Of a stretch of DNA of 39,326 nucleotides, positions 1-15,565 are shown one piece after another; position 1 is the stretch's first letter, and each line of letters starts with the position of its first letter. The stretch comes from Coriobacteriia bacterium (GTDB taxonomy: Bacteria > Actinomycetota > Coriobacteriia > WRKU01 > WQUG01). The position numbers were made by a program, and so were the translations under genes. Location of the stretch: positions 1 to 39,326 of the forward strand of contig WRFR01000016.1 of NCBI GenBank assembly GCA_009778715.1, in the 5' to 3' direction. Below the pieces are notes generated by a model. The model searched no databases, was not told the DNA's origin, and worked only from the letters and a program-made list of their open reading frames with translations.

Positions 1-755
1 CCGCACTGCGAGCAATAGATCTGAGCTGCTGGCGCTGCTACTCCCTGCTGCACAGTAACCGGCTTGATTTGCTGCACGGCGCCCGACGCTACTTGGGGAG
101 CAACGGTATTTGTCGCCAGGCTTCGCCTGATCAGGAGAAATATCCCTAGCCCCAACAACACGACCCCAAGAATAATCAAAACAGTCGCTACGGGTGGCAT
201 CCATGAATACTTGCTAATTGCAGAGATGCCGTTTTCATCCATACTGAATGAGTAGTTATTAAAACTCAGTCTCTGTGAGTCATAGAAATAATTGAGATAG
301 ATTCCGCCACCAATACACACAACGCCGAGGATGAGTGTGATTATTTCAGGAACAACTCCGCCTACATCTGAATCGGTTCCCGCCCGTTTCTCCGAAGCAA
401 CCCGCTGCTTCTTGACGAGCGTGCGAATGCCAAGAATTAGAAGTGCGACAACCTCAAGAGACACAAACACCAACATAGATATTCTTAAAGTTCCATACGC
501 CCGCGACAGATAAGTCAATAGTCCAGCAGTTTCCAAGTTGACATAACGTCCACGTGCAAAAGGCAAATAATAAAGCAAGGAAGATCCAAAGTTCACGGTA
601 AGCAGCGCAGCAATGACTGCAAAAACCAATTGCTTAGTTTGCTTTGTTCCTTCTTTAGAATTGCCCCGCCGCCTTCTTTTCAGTATTGTGACCACACAAT
701 AAAGCAGGATGGCTGCATTTAGTACAAAACTAGCAAGGTTGATCCATAATCTCAT
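1..755 (-). CDS. membrane protein with C-terminal zinc ribbon (partial, runs off left edge)
   Basis: An open frame on the minus strand starts at the ATG at 755 and stays open to base 1, about 251 codons, with no stop seen. The start has a strong ribosome binding site (GGAGGA, 3 bases upstream). The protein begins MRLWINLASFVLNAAILLY and shows about four hydrophobic segments (near residues 5-20, 40-62, 85-110 and 140-155), then another near 185-210 followed by Arg-Arg. A Gln/Ala/Val-rich linker leads to IYCSQCG at the window edge, the first half of a zinc ribbon. Zinc-ribbon membrane proteins of this kind are common in Gram-positive bacteria and mostly uncharacterised. I do not recognise a specific family. 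Its leader carries the structured RNA described at 759-952, so its translation may be switched. Confidence 0.8.
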   Translation of the reverse strand, partial: MRLWINLASFVLNAAILLYCVVTILKRRRRGNSKEGTKQTKQLVFAVIAALLTVNFGSSLLYYLPFARGRYVNLETAGLLTYLSRAYGTLRISMLVFVSLEVVALLILGIRTLVKKQRVASEKRAGTDSDVGGVVPEIITLILGVVCIGGGIYLNYFYDSQRLSFNNYSFSMDENGISAISKYSWMPPVATVLIILGVVLLGLGIFLLIRRSLATNTVAPQVASGAVQQIKPVTVQQGVAAPAAQIYCSQC

Positions 756-758
756 GTG

Positions 759-952
759 TCCTCCAATTTCACAGTACGCATCGGAGGAGTTGGACTCACA
801 AAGAGGTGCCCAACCCCTTTGCGACAAATCAGAATCAAAAACAACTGAACTAACAGCGATTTCAACCAGACTTAAGAGGTTAGGCACCTCGTTGCCTGGT
901 CAAAACTAGCCGCAAAAAAAATATAGTTCAGTTGTTAAACTGATTTGTCGCA
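759..952 (-). ncRNA. candidate riboswitch-like leader RNA, copy 1 (pseudoknot plus SD-sequestering hairpin)
   Basis: Read on the minus strand from about 952. Helix P1 pairs 951-940 with 832-821 (12 bp, perfect). A second helix pairs 935-924 with 852-841 (12 bp). Hairpin P3 pairs 900-896 with 869-865; its loop strand 890-874 pairs with 819-803 over 17 bp, two of them G-U, forming a pseudoknot. Bases 788-780 pair with 767-759 (9 bp, one G-U), covering the Shine-Dalgarno of the gene at 755. The strand 818-809 can instead pair with 794-785 (10 bp), which would free the Shine-Dalgarno. The G-U pairs are allowed only on this strand, which sets the orientation. A homologous RNA lies at 13161-13364. 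The ligand or signal is unknown; the RNA class is not one I recognise. Confidence 0.7.
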
Positions 953-958
953 TTTCCG

Positions 959-964
959 ATTATA
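959..964 (-). promoter_or_regulatory. -10 element for the leader RNA and gene at 755
   Basis: A perfect TATAAT on the minus strand lies about 7 bases before the first base of helix P1. The surrounding sequence (TATAATCGG, then A or G, then ATGC) is nearly identical to the promoter of the second RNA copy at 13149. No good -35 hexamer is visible. Confidence 0.55.
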
Positions 965-1181: not shown

Positions 1182-1206
1182 GCAGGGTTATTTTTAGGGG
1201 TATGAA

Positions 1207-1316
1207 GAGAAATCGGAGGGGTACGAATGCGAGTTCCGCAGCCGCGCAAGGTCATGAAGTTAGCAAACGCTTACGCGGCGAGGACTGTCTGAGCAGGCGT
1301 ATCCCTCCGATTTCTC
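1207..1316 (+). repeat. structured palindromic element, copy A
   Basis: A 19-bp outer stem pairs 1207-1225 with 1298-1316, with one G-U on the plus strand. Inside are conserved blocks: CGAATGCGAGTTCCGCAGCC near 1224-1243, a GCCGCG/CGCGGC stem, and TGTCTGAGCAGGCG near 1286-1299. The same blocks occur at 13018-13136 on the minus strand, where the outer stem has a completely different sequence but is still fully paired. This suggests selection for structure (an RNA or a processed hairpin). It lies 11 bp beyond the stop of thrS. Function unknown. Confidence 0.65.
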
Positions 1317-1327
1317 ACCGACTCACA

Positions 1328-3100
1328 TTAAGGGTGCTCGGCAAGGATCTTATCCGCGACAGCAGCGACAGGCATCGCTCCCAGGTCGCCTTCGGCGCGG
1401 TGGCGGACGGAGACTTCCCCGCTCTCTGCCTCACGCTTACCCAGCACGAGCATGTAGGGGATGCGTTGCGTCTGGGCGCGGGCGATCTTGGCATTCATGC
1501 GCTCGTTAGCCTCGTCGACTTCAACGCGCAGGCCAGCAGCAGCAAGCTCAGTGGCCACGCCGCGCGCAGCCTCATTCTGGTCCTCGGAAATCGGGATCAC
1601 CATGGCCTGCGTGGGCATGAGCCACGTGGGCAGGGCGCCGTTGTAGTGCTCCAGCAGGATGCCGTAGAAGCGCTCCATCGAACCAAGGATAGCACGGTGC
1701 AGCATGTAGGGGGTCTCCGACGTGTTCTCCGCCGTACGGTACTCGGCACCGAAGAGCCCCGGCATGTTGCCGTCGAACTGGATCGTCGAGCACTGCCAGA
1801 TGCGCCCGATGGCGTCGCGCAGCTTGATGTCGATCTTGGGGCCGTAGAAGGCGCCGTCTCCCTCGTTGATCTCGTAGTCGATACCGCGCGTCTCCAGTGC
1901 GTCGCGCAGCGCTGAGGTGGCAAGCTCCCACATCTCATCAGTGCCGATGCTGTCCTCGGGGCGCGTTGAAAGCTCAGCGGTATAGCTGAAGCCGAACGTT
2001 GACATCACATAGTCGACCAGGTCGAGCAGCTTCAGCACTTCATCGTGCACCTGGTCAGGGCGCACAAGAATATGCGCATCGTCCTGTGTGAAACCGCGCG
2101 CGCGCATGAGGCCGTGGACCACGCCGCTCATCTCGTTGCGATAGACCGTGCCGAACTCAAAGATGCGCATCGGCAGCTCACGATAGCTGTGGAGATTTGC
2201 GGAATAGACCATGAGGTGGCCGGGGCAGTTCATCGGCTTGACGCCATATTCGTTGTAGCGCGCCTCCCCCTCAGCGTCCTTGCCTTCTTCCACCTGGAAG
2301 AAGAACATATCGTCCTTGTAGTGGTCATAATGACCTGACATCTTCCACATGTCGGACTTATAGATATGCGGGGTGATGACCTCGACATAGTCGCGCGCGA
2401 TCAGCTCTTTGCGCAGCCAGTCCTGGAGCAGGCGCAATGTGCGGGTGCCCTTAGGATGGTAGAGCGGCAACCCCGGACCCGCCAGCTCGTTGAAGCTGAA
2501 GAGATCGAGCTCCTTGCCGAGCTTACGATGATCGCGCTTCTCGGCCTCCTCAATAAACGTCAGGTACGAGGTCAACTCATCGGCGGTCTTAAACGCCGTA
2601 CCGTAGATACGTTGGAGCTGCTCGCGCTCCGCGTCGGCGCGCCAGTAAGCGCCCGCGACCTTGGTGAGCTTGAAGTGCTTGAGCTTGCTTGTATAGTTCA
2701 CATGCGGGCCCCGGCAGAGGTCAATGAAGTCGCCAAGCGTGTAGGTCGTGATCGTCTCGCCTTCCGGGAGCTCTGCGATGAGCTCCTCTTTAAAAGGCTG
2801 CTCTACGAACTGCGCGGCGGCCTCCTCGCGCGTGACCTCAGTGCGCGTCAGCGGCAGGTTCTGCTTCGCGATCTGGCGCATCGTGGCCTCGATCGTCTCC
2901 AGGTCGTCAGTCGAGAGCTTGTGATCACCCGGCAGCTGCACATCGTAATAGAAACCGTCTTCAATGGCCGGACCCACGCCGAAGTGAGTCCCCGGATAGA
3001 GCTGCTGGATGGCCGCCGCCATCAGATGCGCTGTCGAATGGCGCAGCATATCAAGCTCAGCCGCTTGCTGCTCCTGGGCGGAAAGGGTACATTCACACAT
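1328..3100 (-). CDS. thrS: threonyl-tRNA synthetase, lacking the N-terminal TGS domain
   Basis: Class II synthetase that charges tRNA-Thr in the cytoplasm; 590 aa. The N-terminal editing domain is present: HSTAHLMAAAIQ near residues 21-32 and CRGPHV near 129-134 supply its His and Cys residues. The catalytic core has the zinc cysteine in MNCPGH, motif 2 (FGTVYRNEMSG then GLMRARGFTQDD) and motif 3 (MLHRAILGSMERF). The C-terminal anticodon-binding domain follows (PTQAMVIPIS to the end). Most bacterial ThrRS are about 640 aa and start with a TGS domain of about 60 residues; this one begins at the editing domain. The start is fixed by AAGGAG six bases before the ATG at 3100, and no TGS-like frame lies upstream. 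It is the last gene of the tig-to-thrS run. Confidence 0.97.
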   Translation of the reverse strand: MCECTLSAQEQQAAELDMLRHSTAHLMAAAIQQLYPGTHFGVGPAIEDGFYYDVQLPGDHKLSTDDLETIEATMRQIAKQNLPLTRTEVTREEAAAQFVEQPFKEELIAELPEGETITTYTLGDFIDLCRGPHVNYTSKLKHFKLTKVAGAYWRADAEREQLQRIYGTAFKTADELTSYLTFIEEAEKRDHRKLGKELDLFSFNELAGPGLPLYHPKGTRTLRLLQDWLRKELIARDYVEVITPHIYKSDMWKMSGHYDHYKDDMFFFQVEEGKDAEGEARYNEYGVKPMNCPGHLMVYSANLHSYRELPMRIFEFGTVYRNEMSGVVHGLMRARGFTQDDAHILVRPDQVHDEVLKLLDLVDYVMSTFGFSYTAELSTRPEDSIGTDEMWELATSALRDALETRGIDYEINEGDGAFYGPKIDIKLRDAIGRIWQCSTIQFDGNMPGLFGAEYRTAENTSETPYMLHRAILGSMERFYGILLEHYNGALPTWLMPTQAMVIPISEDQNEAARGVATELAAAGLRVEVDEANERMNAKIARAQTQRIPYMLVLGKREAESGEVSVRHRAEGDLGAMPVAAVADKILAEHP

Positions 3101-12966: not shown

Positions 12967-13017
12967 TTAAGTTGGCAGATTATTACACGCAAACACGCTT
13001 GGGGGTTCCGCTTGTCC

Positions 13018-13136
13018 GGGATGGGGATGGGAGGGGATGCGCCTGCTCAGACATACTCGCCGCAATCGCTTCCGGCAAGCACAAGGCTTTGCGCGGCTGC
13101 GTAACTCGCATTCGCACCCCCTCCCATCCCCATCCC
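13018..13136 (-). repeat. structured palindromic element, copy B
   Basis: A 24-bp outer stem pairs 13018-13041 with 13113-13136, with a single position that is G-U on the minus strand and mismatched on the plus strand. The interior (read on the minus strand) repeats the conserved blocks of copy A: CGAATGCGAGTTACGCAGCC, a GCCGC/GCGGC stem, then TGTCTGAGCAGGCG. The outer stem is G/A-rich here (GGGATGGGGATGGGAGGGG) and unrelated to that of copy A. It lies between the AAA ATPase and the promoter of the second leader RNA. Confidence 0.65.
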
Positions 13137-13148
13137 TGCCTAATGCTT

Positions 13149-13154
13149 TATAAT
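13149..13154 (+). promoter_or_regulatory. -10 element for leader RNA copy 2
   Basis: Perfect TATAAT followed by CGGAGATGC, matching the promoter of copy 1 almost base for base. The inferred start is near 13161. No convincing -35 is seen. Confidence 0.55.
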
Positions 13155-13160
13155 CGGAGA

Positions 13161-13364
13161 TGCTACAAATCCGGCTGAAGGCAGCCGACTGAAAATCTAT
13201 TATCTTTGTGTCCAAAAAACCGGCAACGAGGCGTCTAGCCCCTATAGTCGGTTTGAGGACAGTCTTTGCCTTCTTTATCGGATTTGTAGCAAGGGGTTAG
13301 GCGCCTTCTTGCAGTTAATTACATGAATCTCCTTACCTCTGTTGTAATCACGGGGTTTGGAGAT
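13161..13364 (+). ncRNA. candidate riboswitch-like leader RNA, copy 2
   Basis: P1 pairs 13162-13173 with 13279-13290 (12 bp, perfect). Hairpin P2 pairs 13172-13177 with 13182-13187. P3 pairs 13217-13222 with 13249-13254, extended by GTCC (13210-13213) with GGAC (13257-13260). The P3 loop strand 13229-13242 pairs with 13293-13306 (14 bp, two G-U), the pseudoknot. Bases 13327-13332 pair with the Shine-Dalgarno region 13359-13364, extended by 13335-13339 with 13352-13356. The pseudoknot strand 13292-13301 can instead pair with 13331-13340 (9 of 10 positions), which would open the Shine-Dalgarno. Sequence and structure match copy 1, with compensatory changes. It lies in the leader of the methyltransferase gene. 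Confidence 0.7.
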
Positions 13365-13367
13365 CAA

Positions 13368-14453
13368 ATGGCAAACAATAGCAGCGCTCTTTCAAAAGCG
13401 AGAGTGGCGCGAGCAGATGAATTCTACACCCAGCTCGTTGATATTGAAAATGAGCTACGCCATTATCGTGAGCAACTACGTGGCAAAACAATCCTTTGCA
13501 ACTGCGACGACCCTTATGAAAGTAACTTTTTCAAATACTTCGCAATGAACTTCAATTTCCTTGGACTTAAGAAGCTCATAGCGACAAGCTTTGTACCTAG
13601 TCCAATAGCCGGCGTTCAACTGCCACTTTTCGAAATTGAAGGATTAAAAGCAACTATCGACAAAGAGCCTTTTAAGATCGAGATCCATGGAGTACATGAT
13701 CTGACTGGTGACGGATCAATCGGACTGAATGATATAGCTGAACTTTTAAAGCAGGATGAAAACGTGGCAACGCAGTTACACGGCGATAATCTGTACTGCG
13801 CTGGTGACTTTCGCAGCTCCGAATGTGTTGAACTTCTTCGTGAGGCAGATATTGTCGTCACCAACCCTCCCTTCTCGCTCTTTCGGGAATTCATTGTTCT
13901 ACTTGCTATGCTTCATAAGCAATTCCTGATTATCGGAAACATGAACGCGATCACCTATAAAGAAGTCTTCCGATTGATTATGACGAATAACTTATGGCTT
14001 GGCGAAAGCATTCATAGCGGAGATCGTGAGTTTAGGGTTCCTAAGTATTATCCGCTTGACGCAACAAGTTGCCGCGTTGACGAATTCGGGAATAGCTATA
14101 TTCGAGTAAAAGGCGTCCGCTGGTTTACGAATCTTGATGTGCCGAGCCGCCATGAAAAACTTCCACTTTATAAAACATACTCTGCCGAAGAGTATCCCAC
14201 TTACGACAACTACGCCGCAATCAACGTTAATAAGACGGCAGAAATACCCGCCGACTATTATGGCATTATGGGTGTCCCAATTTCATTTATGGACAAATAC
14301 AATCCAGACCAGTTTGAAATAATCGGCGCAAGTGATAACGGCGCTATTGATGAAAAGTATAAGCTGCCGCACTTCAAAAAGCATAATGAACCGTATATTG
14401 ATGATAAGAAACTCTACAAACGCATTTTCATCCAGCGAAAGGACAGACCGTAA
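13368..14453 (+). CDS. EcoRI-type adenine-specific DNA methyltransferase
   Basis: 361 aa. The catalytic N6-adenine motif is NPPFSLF (motif IV). Upstream there is DPYESNFFKYF near the N-terminus, and the C-terminal half has NKTAEIPADYYGIMGVPISFMDKYNPDQFEIIG, in pieces typical of the EcoRI methylase family that modifies adenine in double-stranded DNA using S-adenosylmethionine. The ATG at 13368 is preferred over 13323: it has GGAG seven bases upstream and that Shine-Dalgarno is the one caught in the leader hairpin. Its stop overlaps the next start by one base (TAATG), so it is coupled to the DUF262-HNH nuclease. AT-richer than surrounding genes, consistent with transfer. Confidence 0.9.
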   Translation: MANNSSALSKARVARADEFYTQLVDIENELRHYREQLRGKTILCNCDDPYESNFFKYFAMNFNFLGLKKLIATSFVPSPIAGVQLPLFEIEGLKATIDKEPFKIEIHGVHDLTGDGSIGLNDIAELLKQDENVATQLHGDNLYCAGDFRSSECVELLREADIVVTNPPFSLFREFIVLLAMLHKQFLIIGNMNAITYKEVFRLIMTNNLWLGESIHSGDREFRVPKYYPLDATSCRVDEFGNSYIRVKGVRWFTNLDVPSRHEKLPLYKTYSAEEYPTYDNYAAINVNKTAEIPADYYGIMGVPISFMDKYNPDQFEIIGASDNGAIDEKYKLPHFKKHNEPYIDDKKLYKRIFIQRKDRP

Positions 14454-15565
14454 TGAAGATCGAATTGCAGAATATCACCGTCCGAGAAGTCTCGGCAGGT
14501 TATGCGGATAACTCGGAGGCAGGCGTTACTGGTTACGACGACAAACTCGACATCCGACCGCCCTATCAGCGGGAGTTTATTTACAAGGACAAGCAACGCG
14601 ATGAAGTTATCCGTACCGTGCGCAAGGGATTTCCGCTCAACACGATGTATTGGGTCGTGCGCCCGGATGCTGGCTTCGAGCTGATGGACGGGCAGCAGCG
14701 CACGATCTCGCTCTGCCAGTATGTGGCGGGCGAGTTTAGCGTTGACTTCGACGGCATGCCCCAGTACTTTCATGGGCTAACTACGGCGGAACAAAATCAG
14801 ATACTGGACTACCCGCTCTCCGTCTATGTCTGCGCGGGCAGCGACAAAGAGAAGCTCGACTGGTTCAAGATCATCAACATTGCGGGCGAGAAACTCACCG
14901 ATCAGGAGCTTCGCAACGCGATCTACACGGGCCCCTGGCTGGCCGACGCCAAAGTGTGGTTCTCGAAACCGGGGGCGCCGGCGGCGCACCTCGCCGACAA
15001 GTATGTGAGCGGTACGCCGATCCGCCAGGAGTTTTTGGAGACGGCGCTTAAGTGGATCTGTGACGCGCAAGGGCTGACCACTATCGAAGAATATATGGCG
15101 CTGCACCAGTATGATGACAACGCCAGCCAACTCTGGTTGTACTTTCAAAAAGTGATCCAATGGGTGGAGGCGGTGTTTCCCCACTGGCGCAAGGAGATGA
15201 AGGGGCTTGACTGGGGCGCCCTCTACAACGCGCACAAGGATGACGATCTTGACCCGACCGCGCTGGAGGCACACCTGGCCGAACTGCTTGAGGATCCCGA
15301 GGTCAGCAACAAGCGCGGCGCCTGGCGCTTCGTCCTGGATGGAGATGAGCGCGCGCTAAGCCTGCGCAGCTTCGACGAGCGGCAGAAGCGTGAGATATTC
15401 GAGCGTGACGGCGGGGTCTGTCAGCATTGCGGCGCGGTGATCGCCGACGTCAGCGCCGGGCAGTTCGACCATGTCAAACCCTGGAGTCGCGGCGGCAAGA
15501 CTGAGGTCGATAACGGCCAGCTCCTCTGCCCGGACTGCAACGCCCGCAAGAGCGACGCCTGGTAG
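14453..15565 (+). CDS. DUF262-HNH nuclease, probable restriction partner of the methyltransferase
   Basis: 370 aa. The N-terminal DUF262 domain has the hallmark DGQQR (about residues 79-83), with PPYQREFIYKDKQRDEVIRT before it. The C-terminal HNH domain has CQHCG, then FDHVKPWSRGGKTEVDNGQL and CPDCNARKSD: an H-N-N metal site held by two CxxC zinc knuckles. DUF262 with HNH occurs in GmrSD-type and other defence nucleases. Pairing with a coupled methyltransferase suggests a restriction-modification unit in which this protein cuts unmodified DNA. The recognition site cannot be read from sequence. The first part is of moderate GC while most of the gene is GC-rich, unlike the methyltransferase, hinting at different origins. 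Confidence 0.85.
   Translation: MKIELQNITVREVSAGYADNSEAGVTGYDDKLDIRPPYQREFIYKDKQRDEVIRTVRKGFPLNTMYWVVRPDAGFELMDGQQRTISLCQYVAGEFSVDFDGMPQYFHGLTTAEQNQILDYPLSVYVCAGSDKEKLDWFKIINIAGEKLTDQELRNAIYTGPWLADAKVWFSKPGAPAAHLADKYVSGTPIRQEFLETALKWICDAQGLTTIEEYMALHQYDDNASQLWLYFQKVIQWVEAVFPHWRKEMKGLDWGALYNAHKDDDLDPTALEAHLAELLEDPEVSNKRGAWRFVLDGDERALSLRSFDERQKREIFERDGGVCQHCGAVIADVSAGQFDHVKPWSRGGKTEVDNGQLLCPDCNARKSDAW

Follow-up and report, generated by a model that had tools for sequence, protein, structure and literature searches.

Does the leader of the gene at position 755 of this Coriobacteriia contig contain a regulatory RNA of a new class and, if so, how would it act? The window examined is the whole stretch of 39,326 nt. 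The first-pass annotation, made from the sequence alone, proposed a translational riboswitch of an unrecognized class on the minus strand: a 12-bp P1 behind a TATAAT element, a 17-bp pairing between an internal loop and the 3' flank, a 9-bp hairpin over the Shine-Dalgarno (SD) before the ATG at 755, and an alternative 10-bp pairing that would engage the anti-SD strand. All of these elements are present, as is the second window copy that it announced (Table 1). The 207-nt stretch with copy 1 folds with z = -7.7 relative to shuffles. The gene itself had been called a zinc-ribbon membrane protein; the call rests on a CSQC motif at the C terminus, where the contig ends, and no Pfam match accompanied it.

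Table 1. Positions of the two window copies, their parts, the genes behind them and the nearby palindromes.
Feature	Position	Strand	Remarks
Copy 1 RNA	951-799	-	
-10 element TATAAT, copy 1	959..964	-	7 nt before P1; from sequence
P1 5' strand, copy 1	940..951	-	12 bp with 832-821; family covariation
P1 3' strand, copy 1	821..832	-	pairs with 951-940; family covariation
P2/P3 5' strand, copy 1	924..936	-	13 bp with 852-840; P2/P3 covary in family
P2/P3 3' strand, copy 1	840..852	-	sequence and family covariation
P4 5' strand, copy 1	896..905	-	pairs with 869-860; family covariation
P4 3' strand, copy 1	860..869	-	sequence and family covariation
P4 loop strand (pseudoknot 5' strand), copy 1	874..890	-	17 bp with 819-803
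Switch strand (pseudoknot 3' strand), copy 1	803..819	-	also 5' part of hairpin H6
Hairpin H6, copy 1	821-814 with 806-799	-	
Anti-SD region able to pair with switch strand 818-809	785..794	-	10 bp
Anti-SD strand of SD hairpin, copy 1	780..788	-	9 bp with 767-759
SD strand TTGGAGGA, copy 1	759..767	-	11 nt before ATG
Gene downstream of copy 1: membrane protein, possible C-terminal zinc ribbon	3..755	-	cut by contig end
Copy 2 RNA	13162-13309	+	two compensated P1 changes; 16-bp loop pairing
-10 element TATAAT, copy 2	13149..13154	+	
P1 5' strand, copy 2	13162..13173	+	pairs with 13279-13290
P1 3' strand, copy 2	13279..13290	+	family covariation
P4 loop strand, copy 2	13228..13243	+	16 bp with 13307-13292
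Switch strand, copy 2	13292..13307	+	
Anti-SD ATCTCC, copy 2	13327..13332	+	pairs with GGAGAT 13359-13364
SD GGAGAT, copy 2	13359..13364	+	
EcoRI-type adenine methyltransferase gene under copy 2	13368..14453	+	Pfam PF13651, E 5e-137
Second gene: GmrSD N-terminal domain and HNH nuclease	14453..15565	+	Pfam PF03235, PF01844
ERIC-like palindrome copies	window 1198-1329 (-); window 13010-13140 (+); G000:C19:23543-23674; G000:C3:38710-38832		

A covariance model built from the two window copies (c1 and c2) picked up three further copies in this genome and five across three related ones, all Coriobacteriia. Refined on ten hand-aligned copies, the model recovered 18 copies (37-126 bits) in 6 of 14 genomes of one Coriobacteriia order: five each in G000 and G002, three in G010, two each in G003 and G005, and one in G007. 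Judging by the sample codes of three of the six carrier genomes, we take their source to be termite gut. Beyond the order, scans of 400 genomes from the class and 397 from the phylum, run under stricter filters, yielded no convincing member. A genome-wide pattern scan gave five true matches, all on contigs of Coriobacteriia MAGs already in the set, the rest being chance. Spread by phages or plasmids was considered and rejected; no match pointing to such carriage was found, and viral matches to the short loop pattern were chance. Our literature search, which had most subscription journals outside its reach, found no report of the RNA.

Scanning Rfam 15 with cmscan under permissive filters gave no significant family for the window copy or for ten homologue loci, and raiA, Collinsella-1, cobalamin, T-box, Termite-flg and Termite-leu gave no covariance-model match, in agreement with the first-pass remark that the conserved loop sequence was not recognized from a known class. 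Rfam thresholds were reached only by tRNA and DUF3800-XI RNA, both outside the element; the latter (RF02975) lies at L039:510-556, about 1 kb upstream of copy G2e. A known class of metabolite riboswitch, diverged too far to be recognized, would account for a logic that resembles, by analogy, that of cobalamin or preQ1 switches (a loop-loop or loop-strand contact governing SD access); against the empty scans we consider it quite improbable. For the c-di-GMP classes, no GGDEF was found in G000 (5 copies), G003 or G010, drafts that are 78-95% complete and carry 10 of the 18 copies, and the two GGDEF-richest genomes showed no RNA copy. This makes c-di-GMP an unlikely ligand.

All 18 copies share a P1-P2-P3 stem, a P4 hairpin with a loop of about 24 nt that pairs over 14-17 bp with the strand just 3' of P1 (the switch strand), and, some 7 nt ahead of P1, an AT-rich element resembling a -10 box. 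Two-sided changes occur in 12 of 12 pairs of P1 (98.6% of cells paired, 18 homologues), in 7 of 7 modelled pairs of P4 and in 27 of 30 pairs of P1-P4 as a whole (covariation score 0.79 vs. 0.27 shuffled and at most 0.12 for slid partners), counts that lean towards the structure since the 18-sequence alignment was fitted to P1-P4. The pseudoknot was left out of the search model; it has two-sided changes in 8 of 17 pairs, a number reached in 0 of 500 shuffles, with 21 two-sided cells vs. 5.3 in shuffles and a covariation score of 0.38 (slides, 0.08-0.20). Pairing each loop with its own switch strand gives -29.3 kcal/mol vs. -22.3 with swapped copies (p = 0.00005). Compensatory change is seen in every helix of this domain, and in the pseudoknot, over 17 more homologues. 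H6, the hairpin formed by the switch strand, is paired in 96% of cells; neither H6 over the family nor a small hairpin within the P4 loop showed covariation. A kissing-hairpin version, in which these two hairpins would meet, was rejected, the long pseudoknot being the part that covaries.

Cells with G-U outnumber those with A-C by 50 to 5 in the pseudoknot and by 60 to 13 in P1-P4, an excess that points to an RNA of this strand and extends to the whole family what had been noted for the minus strand of copy 1. It bears directly on whether the pairing could instead be the inverted repeat of a palindromic or mobile DNA element of the REP/BIME kind. The 3' hairpin CAAAGGGGTTAGGCGCCTTTTTG does resemble REP-like palindromes (CACAAAGGGGTCAGGCACCTTTGTG) of other Coriobacteriia, and loop and switch strands resemble an inverted pair. 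REP/BIME elements or MITEs would have near-identical, dispersed copies and strand-symmetric pairing; here the copies are divergent while keeping their pairing and a fixed spacing to the -10-like element and start codon. Apart from the RNA copies, the window's own genome matches the REP-like pattern perfectly at a single site. Together with the G-U asymmetry, this makes a DNA-level origin of the pairing extremely unlikely.

The REP-like palindromes were seen at loci L046, L047, L048, L049, L051 and L052, and at L028; their likeness to the 3' hairpin may reflect common origin or chance. A separate, ERIC-like extragenic palindrome of about 120 nt has a conserved core (CGCCTGCTCAGACA ... GGCTGCGNAACTCGCATTCG) and outer arms that vary but stay complementary, and its window copies have no Rfam match. 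This genome has four copies of it, and three of these precede an RNA copy in the same orientation, at a distance of 20-265 nt. The palindrome also occurs in G001, G012 and G013, where no RNA copy was found, and therefore seems independent of the RNA.

The 5' bulge is A-rich and conserved (consensus near GACUGAAAACUYAAUA). P1, P2 and P3 (about 23 bp) match P4 plus pseudoknot (about 25 bp) in length, so that a fold-back into two parallel stacks hinged at this bulge, a geometry we infer, would bring the loop to the base of P1.

We think it probable that this is a cis-acting, riboswitch-like RNA regulating translation of the gene behind it. Transcription would start at P1 or within a few nucleotides of it, and the P1-P2-P3 and P4 arm would fold back, with the 24-nt P4 loop pairing to the switch strand right after P1. 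As long as the pseudoknot holds, the anti-SD would be free to close its hairpin over the SD, leaving the gene silent. With the pseudoknot unformed or broken, the switch strand (typically GGGGUUAG) would capture the anti-SD (typically CUAAUCCU), probably during transcription and before the SD emerges, and a ribosome could then bind. The signal would most likely be a small molecule, with a binding site around the A-rich 5' bulge and the ends of the P4 loop; this is our leading guess, with a protein or RNA trigger as its main rival.

In each of the 18 copies, 41-93 nt separate H6 from an assignable start codon on the same strand, placing the homologues upstream of genes as the first-pass annotation predicted; in G2d the frame opened by that codon is very short, and the target of this copy is unsure. 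In the copies read by eye, leader-peptide frames that could open at the 5' end meet a stop codon within about 2-16 codons, and a leader peptide was rejected on that basis. In nearly every copy the SD lies, in part or for the most part, in the stem of a leader hairpin. Stable SD hairpins of this kind would suit an RNA thermometer, or a static leader structure that answers to no specific signal. A thermometer has no need of 150 nt of conserved upstream structure and a pseudoknot that covaries, and the pairing of switch strand and anti-SD would be left unexplained; we hold this reading to be quite improbable.

That pairing is specific to the copy. For 17 of 18 copies, pairing of the switch strand is stronger with the actual leader than with shuffled ones (combined z about -8), and the value for own switch strand with own leader is -12.9 vs. 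-11.2 when swapped (18 copies, p = 0.003). Matched changes in switch strand and anti-SD are seen in G7 (GAGGUUAA/UUGACCUC), G10a (AAAGGGGC/GCCCCUUU) and G10b (GGGGUUGG/CUAACCCC). Given that an anti-SD will tend to pair with any strand rich in purines, some of the rival pairing comes automatically. In 13-14 of 18 copies the leader strand that pairs with the SD shares positions with the stretch targeted by the switch strand; the overlap is absent in c5, G2c, G2d and G2e, and across about a third of the copies it is either small or lacking. In copy 1 the rival helices share only 4 nt (785-788), so that pairing of switch strand and anti-SD would free only about half of the SD.

In nearest-neighbour folding, mean predicted SD access is 0.27 with the pseudoknot formed and 0.30 once it is opened (0.39 if H6 is blocked as well), and the rise is clear mainly in c3, G2a, G2b and G10a. 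In copy 1 it goes from 0.01 to at most 0.21. With so modest an equilibrium effect, the choice between pairings, if real, would be a kinetic one made during transcription.

Copy G2c (L035 / L058) departs from this pattern: switch strand and leader form a terminator-like hairpin followed by T6, with an AbiE-like pair downstream. Perhaps this variant acts on transcription, with the sign reversed, or else is an RNA that stands alone. That the whole family might consist of small RNA genes merely located before other genes would fit this hairpin and the apparent promoter of their own; no such terminator was seen in the other copies, start codons lie within the short distances given above and each switch strand is matched to its own leader, which makes it very unlikely.

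The target genes showed no metabolic theme. Zinc-ribbon membrane proteins follow c4, G2a, G5b and perhaps c1, and lipoproteins or secreted proteins follow c3, G2b, G2e and G7. In two genera (c2 and G3b) the RNA precedes an EcoRI-type methylase with a GmrSD/HNH gene, the second G3b gene being read as such by eye from its likeness to the c2 gene; the methylases are 44% identical, and the RNA is present at both EcoRI-type methylases found in the order. For the c2 methyltransferase the start is probably ATG 13368 rather than the first ATG of the frame (13323), because of SD position and homology. In the AbiE-like pair after G2c only the nucleotidyltransferase has a clear Pfam match. G10a precedes an RNase H-like protein, and there are unknowns among the targets as well. 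Copies c1 and G2a both lie behind thrS and are close in sequence; their downstream proteins have no detectable similarity, as if the RNA stays while the adjoining gene is exchanged.

Functionally mixed targets would also be expected of a general stress or defence regulon, in which the same cis switch is worked by a protein, by an antisense or small RNA on the P4 loop, or by an RNase rather than a small molecule, and the conserved P4 loop would be an ideal target for such a factor. A single shared partner in trans would keep the loops constant. Instead, loop and switch strand co-vary copy by copy, even within one genome (G5a vs. G5b, G10a vs. G10c), which indicates an intramolecular partner. 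We regard a trans-acting trigger as a serious though less probable alternative to a metabolite.

We conclude that the two window copies belong to a real, uncatalogued family of cis-regulatory RNA with the anatomy of a translational switch, in keeping with the original proposal. 'Riboswitch' in the strict sense is a candidate label only, ligand binding and direction of control being predicted and unproven. Opinion is evenly balanced on the fuller reading: a new riboswitch class of one Coriobacteriia order, with a new ligand, controlling envelope and phage-defence genes through a 24-nt loop that folds back to pair over up to 17 bp. Rfam lacks this well-supported family, which has an unusually long loop-to-flank pseudoknot and several copies per genome; among its targets are an AbiE-like pair and, in two genera, a system with an EcoRI-type methylase. 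Should the signal be a metabolite, defence and surface functions of gut bacteria would be coupled to a small molecule, and the identity of the ligand could be tested directly with 18 natural variants to hand.

Among known systems, the raiA and Collinsella-1 RNAs are likewise structured RNAs from this part of the tree, and differ in giving no cmscan match at any threshold tried. Termite-flg and Termite-leu are structured RNAs named for termite-gut DNA (PMC2864571). They too are different, with no cmscan match to the new RNA. In the cobalamin riboswitch (RF00174), SD access is governed by base pairing of an aptamer loop to a hairpin or strand lying directly 3' of P1. The new RNA has the same loop contact just 3' of P1, which would govern SD access, but its contact reaches 14-17 bp, it has no four-way junction, and it matches neither the sequence nor the covariance model. 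In H-type pseudoknot switches (preQ1, SAM-II, fluoride), it depends on a pseudoknot immediately before the gene whether or not the expression platform is free. The gene-proximal position is shared; the domain of the new RNA is much larger, and its pseudoknot strand is a partner of the anti-SD, not the SD itself. In antisense kissing systems of the CopA/CopT type, complementary loops begin with a short kissing contact that may extend. The new RNA has complementary loop sequences likewise able to start short and extend, but carries both strands in one molecule, where they co-vary copy by copy.
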